A stretch of DNA of 64,000 bases from Candidatus Gastranaerophilales bacterium (GTDB lineage: Bacteria; Cyanobacteriota; Vampirovibrionia; Gastranaerophilales; Gastranaerophilaceae): the NCBI GenBank assembly GCA_944323735.1, contig CALUTO010000011.1, positions 1-64,000 of the forward strand. Reading direction: 5' to 3'. A program made the position numbers and the translations under genes. The notes below the pieces were generated by a model. The model was given only the letters and a program-made list of their open reading frames with translations, was not told where the DNA came from and made no database searches. Shown in pieces: positions 1 to 779 of this stretch. Every line of letters begins with the position of its first letter. The first letter of the stretch is position 1.

Positions 1-63
1 TAAAGACTGCTTGCGGCGAAACTACTTGGCGGGGGACCGCCTGGGAAGATAGCTAGTTGCCAG
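1..63 (+). rRNA. rrf: 5S ribosomal RNA, 3' part (cut by window start)
   Basis: The first 63 bases align by eye to the 3' half of cyanobacterial 5S rRNA: the TGCGGCGAAACTAC segment, a GGCGG/CCGCC stem closing a GGGA loop, the GAAGATAGCTAG stretch and a GTTGCCAG end matching the usual CGACGCCAG. The 5' half lies outside the window, so this is probably the tail of an rRNA operon. An intrinsic terminator follows within 15 bases. The 3' end is placed at the last base of GCCAG, plus or minus two. Confidence 0.8.
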
Positions 64-77
64 AATCTAATTTTAGC

Positions 78-115
78 AAAAAGGATTTTTTGAGATATTC
101 AAAGAATCCTTTTTT
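78..115 (+). terminator. Intrinsic terminator after 5S rRNA
   Basis: AAAAAGGATT pairs with AATCCTTTTT across a 17-base loop and ends in a T run. It sits 15 bases after the 5S end and would end the rRNA transcript. It is repeated unchanged at 324-361 and 570-607. Confidence 0.8.
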
Positions 116-187
116 GTTGCAGGAATATTTAGTTTAGAAGTATGGGGCTCGTAAAAAACTGAAAATTTGTCAGTTTTTTGCAAAATT

Positions 188-309
188 ATCTCGAACACGG
201 TCGTAAAGACTGCCTCCATTCAAAACTTGACATTTAGTCAACTTTTGAACGGAGTCCTTGGCGAAACTACTTGGCGGGGGAGTGCCTTGCGAAGATAGCT
301 AGTTGCCAG
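188..309 (+). pseudogene. 5S rRNA-like pseudogene copy 1, split by a palindrome
   Basis: TCTCGAACACGG and the following GTAAAGACTGC match 5S loop and helix III sequence, and the tail CGAAACTACTTGG to GTTGCCAG matches the real 5S upstream. Between them, at 214-254, lies a 41-base palindrome: 18-position arms with two mismatches and a 5-base loop. No sequence able to pair with the 3' end is seen upstream, so the 5' arm of helix I is missing. The GGCGG/CCGCC stem is degraded to GGCGG/GTGCC. A functional 5S is unlikely, but a stable structured RNA is possible. Confidence 0.65.
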
Positions 310-323
310 AATCTAATTTTAGC

Positions 324-361
324 AAAAAGGATTTTTTGAGATATTCAAAGAATCCTTTTTT
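324..361 (+). terminator. Intrinsic terminator, repeat unit 1
   Basis: Same hairpin and T run as the terminator at 78-115, shifted by exactly 246 bases. Confidence 0.75.
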
Positions 362-433
362 GTTGCAGGAATATTTAGTTTAGAAGTATGGGGCTCGTAA
401 AAAACTGAAAATTTGTCAGTTTTTTGCAAAATT

Positions 434-555
434 ATCTCGAACACGGTCGTAAAGACTGCCTCCATTCAAAACTTGACATTTAGTCAACTTTTGAACGGAG
501 TCCTTGGCGAAACTACTTGGCGGGGGAGTGCCTTGCGAAGATAGCTAGTTGCCAG
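434..555 (+). pseudogene. 5S rRNA-like pseudogene copy 2, split by a palindrome
   Basis: Second copy of the interrupted 5S segment, 246 bases after copy 1, with the palindrome at 460-500. It differs from the true 5S in the same places as copy 1, so the palindrome was inserted before the tandem duplication. Confidence 0.65.
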
Positions 556-569
556 AATCTAATTTTAGC

Positions 570-607
570 AAAAAGGATTTTTTGAGATATTCAAAGAATC
601 CTTTTTT
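570..607 (+). terminator. Intrinsic terminator, repeat unit 2
   Basis: Third copy of the AAAAAGGATT/AATCCTTTTT hairpin with T run. The 611-779 stretch after it holds no gene; only a GCTGAATAT/ATATTCAGC inverted repeat (about 611-666) is visible. Confidence 0.75.
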
Positions 608-779
608 GTTGCTGAATATATAATTTAATGCTAACCTGCTGACTCTCAACAAAACTAATATTCAGCTAACATTTTTGTATTGCTATCTCCGGTACATCCG
701 TAATGAAAGCCAATTCAAACATGAAATTGCTACCAAACTGATTTTGTATAAAGATTTTATTAAAATTTATCCATTTTTA

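Follow-up and report, generated by a model that had tools for sequence, protein, structure and literature searches.

Integron arrays consist of short units, toxin-antitoxin units among them, that are bounded by hairpin sites of conserved structure and show a polarity away from their anchor. Integrative elements borne by transfer RNA (tRNA) or transfer-messenger RNA (tmRNA) genes repeat a fragment of the gene at their far end and restore the intact gene at the near end, and terminal identity blocks are typical of such tRNA islands. In the Escherichia coli tyrT operon, at the rtT RNA, tandem units beside a tRNA gene repeat the tRNA 3' end. Palindromes of the REP/RAYT type, or derived from IS200/IS605, are imperfect hairpins with a conserved mismatch, dispersed and sometimes clustered. 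Here we describe a hairpin element found in an array of displaced 5S ribosomal RNA (rRNA) gene ends, at the start of a 64,000-nucleotide stretch (the window hereafter) from Candidatus Gastranaerophilales bacterium. Base 1 of the window is base 1 of contig C11 (CALUTO010000011.1), which begins within the 5S gene. What looked like a local 5S curiosity turns out to be part of a hairpin system that spans the order and is located at structural RNA genes. We give an even chance to the reading in which the palindromes belong to a dispersed, structure-conserved hairpin that marks integron-like recombination sites, with cassettes anchored at structural RNA genes.

The hairpin family and its conserved structure

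When the genome that carries the window (assembly G000, 2.06 Mb) was searched with the unit of the 5S array, its palindrome was matched elsewhere. The family was defined by a tip, GACATTTAGTC, a variable stem, and common flanks, CCTCTC...TCGGCAGAGT. A variant form reads CTCC-hairpin-GGAGTCCTTG, and alternative tips, e.g. CCACTGG or ATACTTAAT, occur in the same frame. In the window, the core TGACATTTAGTCA was present twice, both times exactly, and 0 of 100 shuffles gave two occurrences at one mismatch. The whole assembly contains 19 copies of the core, versus one for the reversed control. Among 383 genomes sampled from the order Gastranaerophilales, 205 contained it, the highest count being 41 copies per genome, in one genus (reversed control 0 or 1 per strand). 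A contig database was also scanned with a stricter pattern, and 80 of at least 113 stretches were used as loci (L numbers). Among the records listed, most of the named ones came from Candidatus Gastranaerophilales or from unnamed bacteria, and gut samples were the source of many. One locus titled Muribaculaceae, L156 (JAMPCZ010000013.1), has the same hairpin at tRNA-Met, and is perhaps a misbinned contig. The match in a plasmid collection was weak (57 bp, 84%, Fusobacterium).

In the G000 assembly, 18 of the 19 cores were no more than 650 bp away from a contig end, versus an expected 3.5% of positions. It therefore seems that the arrays cause breaks in the assembly, and that real copy numbers are probably higher.

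Stem pairing was counted at 252 unique sites whose tip was exact. Directly outside the TGAC/GTCA tip, the first pair was Watson-Crick in 249 of them (99 GC, 60 AT, 48 TA and 42 CG); at the next stem position, 128 sites had a C.C mismatch and 109 a pair. For covariation, a first alignment (A1) was built from 54 sites, hand-picked among 102 diverse ones and almost all bearing the CCTCTC flank; one window site was added in a second (A2), two out-of-register variant sites being left out. In the 55-row alignment (48 distinct rows), 90.0% of the cells were paired, versus 72.9% after shuffling. The covariation score of the 48 distinct rows was 0.368, versus a shuffled mean of 0.085 (0 of 500 shuffles reached the observed value) and at most 0.116 for slid versions. 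The hairpin structure is under selection: stems are kept paired, with compensatory change. An earlier reading of the letters of this DNA (the sequence-only reading) had taken decay as part of the main explanation; this does not agree with stems that stay paired across the family, although the first hairpin of the window units has itself decayed.

The second site of locus L347, at the tmRNA gene of congener G002, is a hybrid hairpin, its left arm being ACAAGAC and its right arm GTCATAT. It is one of 5 of the 252 sites that are unpaired next to the tip, and suggests exchange within a hairpin.

Anchoring at structural RNA genes and the units between sites

Many sites sit in displaced duplicates of RNA gene ends, in the D-loop or T-loop of a tRNA, in tmRNA or in 5S. 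The anchors comprised 19 tRNA isotype/side combinations, tmRNA and 5S. Sixty of 99 strict sites were located within 300 bp of a tRNA or tmRNA gene, versus 309 of 4000 random points. Gene sides were then compared at 209 unique sites, restricted to those with CTCTC...GGCAG flanks and the exact tip. A tRNA or tmRNA gene was present within 600 bp on the inner side of 121 sites, and on the outer side only for 8. The 9 nt after the site matched the inner gene (at least 8 of 9) in 93 of the 121, whereas a random other gene was matched in 13. This is the block of identity, from crossover to gene end, by which tRNA-borne elements are recognised; at the tRNA-Glu locus L128 it is 10–11 nt long. The sequence after the site is usually the terminal 10–20 nt of the gene. 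The match begins 10–14 nt from a 3' end, in the T-arm, or mostly 11–12 or 17–20 nt from a 5' end, in the D-arm. The 5' ends were used more than the 3' ends (95 versus 26), and in the 209-site sample each tRNA species was confined to one side, Met excepted. Four unique sites were at 5S and four at tmRNA; 5S loop C sites also occur in congener G001 and in loci L095 and L204. Since the hairpin, with its conserved flanks, is found in displaced copies of many other RNA genes, genome- and order-wide, the palindrome is not private to 5S, and the idea of a local 5S accident was abandoned.

The DNA orientation of the hairpin is nearly constant, outward from the intact gene. Its transcribed sense thus differs between the two sides of tRNA genes, which argues for a role at the DNA level.

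Inspection of neighbouring same-strand sites revealed that 74 of 96 unique spacings were of 60–250 bp, and units were as short as 90 bp (L178). Gene-bearing units were seen on 3' sides. At L128, three sites have in common the tRNA end and 57–108 nt of upstream site sequence, with different cargo between; this cargo includes an HI1420-type antidote (above the Pfam cut-off) beside a Gp49-like protein (below the cut-off). A unit of G002 with sites of the tRNA-Phe type encodes ParD and ParE, both above Pfam cut-offs. In G002, the unit that comes first at the tmRNA gene encodes a DUF2971 protein (above the Pfam cut-off), which also matches PADLOC PDC-S31, a candidate defence family (2.5e-46). Two further units associated with tmRNA differ in their order between genomes: unit Z (1.25 kb) encodes a Zeta toxin above the Pfam cut-off, and unit A is 0.39 kb long. 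In G001, a site is followed by Z, A and the flank; in G000, it is followed by A, Z, a site remnant and the flank, with block identities of 92–97%. Cassette shuffling would be expected to produce such a swapped order.

Units on 5' sides seem to have been placed between the promoter and the tRNA. Promoter-like scores of at least 9 were found next to the tRNA for 11 of 81 site-bearing tRNAs (shuffled mean 6.7, reached by 6 of 100 shuffles), and in the outermost flank for 35 of 81 (shuffled mean 17.9, 0 of 100). Before site-free tRNAs, they were found in 32 of 56 cases (shuffled mean 12.5, 0 of 100). These counts leave out tRNAs with less than 150 bp upstream and sites with no recognised flank. 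The copy of the gene end was matched in 58 of the 81 site-bearing tRNAs and its position assumed in the rest, and a few arrays were counted for two neighbouring tRNAs. A motif near TTGAAAATTAAATA recurs a short distance ahead of tRNA 5' ends, chiefly in loci that have a hairpin site upstream; it is possibly a leader, processing or antitermination signal.

Turning to the window itself, the two 246-bp copies that the sequence-only reading had placed after the 5S end were recovered by a repeat search, with a spacing of 246 bp and 100% identity, as was the 41-base palindrome of each copy, with an exact core in both (Table 1). They are followed by a third, partial copy (534–612, 79 nt), 99% identical to the first unit. 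In the order of parts, each unit has a degenerate hairpin, a 5S piece, the 41-nt hairpin, the 5S tail and a terminator-like hairpin. The copies had been described as the 3' half of 5S with its terminator; the tail and the terminator-like hairpin are indeed there, but the 5S content extends further, from about loop C to the end, in two separate pieces. The Rfam 5S match is limited to the gene cut by the contig start (26 bits versus a gathering score of 38), and the displaced copies gave no Rfam 5S match even at E<=1. Folding was computed for unit 1, unit 2 being identical: the palindrome as single-stranded DNA, in a 60-nt stretch, gave −10.3 kcal/mol.

Congener G001 has the same plan on a separate 54.7-kb contig, with a 23S end, an intact and unexpanded 5S gene, two full units with sequence differences, and part of a third. 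The first hairpin of its units is intact (CCTCTC-hairpin-TCGGCAGAGT) and occupies the place of 5S loop C. The A6/T6 hairpin that had been noted upstream in each window copy therefore looks like a decayed relative of the palindrome. The window is best explained as an empty, amplified 5S array. Unequal exchange at the operon end, as proposed at first, may account for the copy number, the tandem amplification being real; but the palindrome is no private event of 5S. The changed bases reported in the adjoining stem were also found, in helix IV of the displaced 5S ends. These changes (GAGTGCCTTGCG; window 245–260 and 275–292) resemble the right flank of the variant hairpin, GGAGTCCTTG, and are perhaps the scar of a third site.

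Table 1. Positions of the 5S array components in the window.
Feature	Coordinates	Strand	Basis
Intact 5S rRNA gene, 3' part, cut by contig start	1..65	+	Rfam RF00001, 26 bits, model 53-120; full 5S after 23S end in congener G001
Terminator-like hairpin and T run of intact 5S	78..116	+	Inverted repeat I5
Tandem unit 1, 246 bp, in register	42..287	+	Repeat search
Tandem unit 2, 246 bp, identical	288..533	+	Repeat search
First hairpin (hp1), decayed family hairpin at 5S loop C position, unit 1	151..181	+	Inverted repeat I8; intact homologue in G001; fold z -3.2
5S fragment (loop C to helix II 3' strand) between hp1 and hp2, unit 1	188..213	+	By-eye comparison with intact G001 5S
Second hairpin (hp2), family hairpin (CTCC...TGACATTTAGTCA...GGAG), unit 1	214..254	+	Core 228-240; fold z -3.4; in alignment A2
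Displaced 5S 3' end, bases of helix IV changed, unit 1	260..310	+	Repeat families D2, D3
Terminator-like hairpin, unit 1	324..362	+	Inverted repeat I6
hp1, decayed family hairpin, unit 2	397..427	+	Inverted repeat I9
5S fragment between hairpins, unit 2	434..459	+	Identical to 188-213
hp2, family hairpin, unit 2	460..500	+	Core 474-486
Displaced 5S 3' end, unit 2	506..556	+	Repeat search
Outermost terminator-like hairpin, then unique flank	570..608	+	Inverted repeat I7; departs from unit sequence after 612

Proposed cassette recombination and its alternatives

A typical site consists of the left half of an RNA-gene stem-loop, followed by CCTCTC-hairpin-TCGGCAGAGT or CTCC-hairpin-GGAGTCCTTG, and then by the terminal 10–20 nt of the gene. 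The intact gene remains adjacent, with the site facing away from it. If sites and units are products of recombination at the hairpin, the units would be cassettes, in the form of circles or of tandem units joined at the boundary between hairpin and RNA end. Insertion beside the anchor would rebuild the RNA gene and shift the older end outward, as for tRNA-borne integrative elements and integron arrays. A recombinase supplied in trans would probably recognise the hairpin in the form of folded single-stranded DNA. An Xer-type enzyme is a candidate, being the only tyrosine recombinase present in all genomes examined. The data establish the hairpin family, its conserved structure, the anchoring, the orientation rule, the gene-bearing units and the swapped order, whereas the excision and insertion of cassettes, the recognition of single-stranded DNA and the enzyme are inferred. 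In its fullest form this would be a cassette recombination not described so far, in which folded hairpin sites are anchored in tRNA D- and T-loops, tmRNA and 5S loop C. Every insertion would restore the RNA gene, and toxin-antitoxin as well as defence-like genes would accumulate through a host recombinase in trans; we advance this whole scheme tentatively, at somewhat below an even chance.

Xer-type proteins, as judged by score and length, were the only tyrosine recombinases in all 12 genomes, site-rich and site-poor alike. Among six full-length tyrosine recombinases scanned (from G000, G001, G003 and G106), five scored as Xer-type and one lower, and none as IntI. No element-encoded integrase was recognised among the recurrent open reading frames (ORFs) near sites, a single truncated copy lying between two sites, and the 40 largest ORF clusters held no transposase common to the site neighbourhoods. 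Other enzymes were tried and rejected. For IS200/IS605 or REP/RAYT, the Y1 domain (PF01797) was found in 7 of 30 draft genomes but in none of G000 to G003, nor was it found in the site-rich drafts G106, G170, G272, G294 and G322. For the bridge RNA of IS110/IS1111, an idea that came from guide-like target halves around a small upstream hairpin, PF02371 was found in 0 of 14 genomes. For reverse transcription, RVT_1 was present in 9 of 14 draft genomes, but not in the site-rich G000, G110 and G170. On contig C1 of G000, a tyrosine recombinase of 186 aa is encoded some 200 bp from a site; it was dropped because similar proteins in L303 and L304 have phage-like neighbours (by eye) and no site. Short tyrosine recombinases, each some 180 aa long, are encoded at L302:2067-2621, L303 and L304.

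Several observations weigh against cassette recombination. Most units are empty and few carry genes. The outer boundary of the ParDE unit is degenerate (GAGACGC only), and its contig has no tRNA-Phe gene, so that this anchor is presumed. There is one clear case of swapped order, which tandem duplication and deletion at the repeated RNA ends might equally produce. The tmRNA gene of G001 is on contig C2 and the units on C27, which starts inside a site with a tmRNA end, so that their link is inferred; in both genomes the Z unit ends at AAGAG|TCC without a hairpin. No RNA-end match was found for 28 of the 121 sites, and 81 of the 209 had no RNA gene in view, although for 41 of these the edge of the locus was less than about 300 bp away. 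Two of the five structure measures, pairs changed on both sides (6) and further pair types (13), were not above shuffles (116 and 420 of 500, respectively). At a promoter score threshold of 8, outermost flanks were no different from shuffles (47 of 81 versus 42.0; 16 of 100). The 40 largest ORF clusters near sites hold nothing recombinase-like, at most six loci sharing a family (by eye), and the best score of the six recombinases for the integron integrase family TIGR02249 was 161, versus a cut-off of 265. Finally, some copies lie inside other palindromic repeats (L196; G001 copies).

This last point fits an unlikely, though serious, alternative: a non-autonomous hairpin repeat, similar to miniature inverted-repeat transposable elements (MITE) or REP, that targets palindromic DNA, RNA-gene loops for instance, with arrays grown by slippage or unequal crossing-over and genes caught by accident. 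The dispersed G001 copies are near-identical, the tandem units of the window are exact, repeated RNA ends supply homology (up to 96 nt after two tmRNA sites in G002), and no recombinase was seen in cis. On the other hand, Y1 transposases were not found in four site-rich congeners and IS110 was absent from the 14 genomes searched. Such a repeat alone leaves unexplained the orientation rule, the short RNA-end boundary of L128 with different cargo, and the swapped order. In G001, the loci L306, L307, L309, L310, L311, L320 and L142 carry near-identical variant hairpins with their own upstream hairpin; the loci are dispersed, with no tRNA in view, and most of these hairpins lie between two copies of another palindromic repeat, CCTTCCCCAAGTCGGGGAAGG ... 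CCTCCCCAACTTGGGGAGG.

It is improbable that the sites are attachment-site debris of ordinary tyrosine-recombinase islands or prophages that had entered tRNA genes, in which case many attP sites would include the hairpin. Repeated RNA-end blocks would fit such islands, and the C-terminus of a truncated integrase was found between two sites at tRNA-Phe in G000. The same hairpin is however used at all the isotype/side combinations, tmRNA and 5S listed above, units are as short as 90 bp, and 5' ends are commoner than 3' ends. A phage origin was also considered and set aside, since no exact match to either of two hairpin patterns was obtained in a viral contig collection.

Structured RNAs exapted from the units, which the sequence-only reading had held out as an alternative, are very improbable. 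Units on 5' sides may be transcribed if they follow the promoter, the 5S units have terminator-like hairpins, and the structure is conserved. Against this stands the hairpin's transcribed sense, which is reversed between the 5' and 3' sides of tRNAs while the DNA orientation is nearly constant. The Rfam scan of the window gave no gathering-level match to a known structured RNA; matches of the TtnuHACA5 type at E<=1 were far below gathering scores and judged to be chance.

An assembly artefact at a collapsed rRNA operon end, the worry raised at first and one that the contig-edge position of the window and of most cores could feed, is hardly credible, given that the separate G001 assembly has the same architecture with sequence differences, that the element is present in many independent records, and that arrays are likelier to break assemblies than to arise from them.

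If cassette recombination is true, it would be a second integron-like route for collecting genes, on conserved RNA genes instead of a dedicated platform, and with a folded site unlike attC. It could explain why the cores cluster at contig ends, and it gives a defined pair of substrates for finding the recombinase. Even as a plain hairpin repeat, this would be a structure-conserved element in displaced RNA gene ends across an order; no paper on it was found in the open-licence full-text literature searched.

Comparison with described systems

Like REP/RAYT palindromes, the hairpin is imperfect, bears a conserved mismatch, and is dispersed and sometimes clustered; it differs by the duplication of RNA ends and by the Y1 transposase, not found in congeners. 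With the tyrT operon and rtT RNA of E. coli it shares tandem units that bear a tRNA end, but these are at one locus only, versus many loci for the hairpin sites. A table in PMC2658671 lists a 175-bp variable number tandem repeat at the rtT RNA.

Expansion segments of 5S rRNA, which are helix-forming inserts, are described in bacteria and archaea, and 5S pseudogenes can share an insert with the expanded genes of the same genome (PMC7812874). A text search found no mention of Cyanobacteria, Melainabacteria or Gastranaerophilales in the main text of PMC7812874. In contrast to such segments, the insert described here is a genome-wide element, and the intact 5S of G001 is unexpanded.

The likeness to tRNA-borne integrative elements lies in the terminal fragment at the far end and the intact gene at the near end. 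The units are however often of about 90–250 bp, with no integrase seen save one truncated copy. One hairpin is common to many RNA genes, 5' ends and D-loops are frequently used, and 5S is used as well.

With integrons, the arrays share short hairpin-bounded units, a conserved structure with a variable stem, toxin-antitoxin units, and polarity from the anchor. Variable gene cassettes between structure-conserved hairpin sites were found, few of the units seen carrying genes. The anchors here are in contrast tRNA, tmRNA and 5S genes, the boundary carries the RNA gene end, and no IntI was among the six recombinases scanned. The attC consensus boxes are absent from the site ends (GTTRRRY in 0 and RYYYAAC in 1 of the 209 unique sites). 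In the way they work, the hairpin arrays resemble both integron arrays and tRNA-borne integrative elements, yet they fit neither definition.
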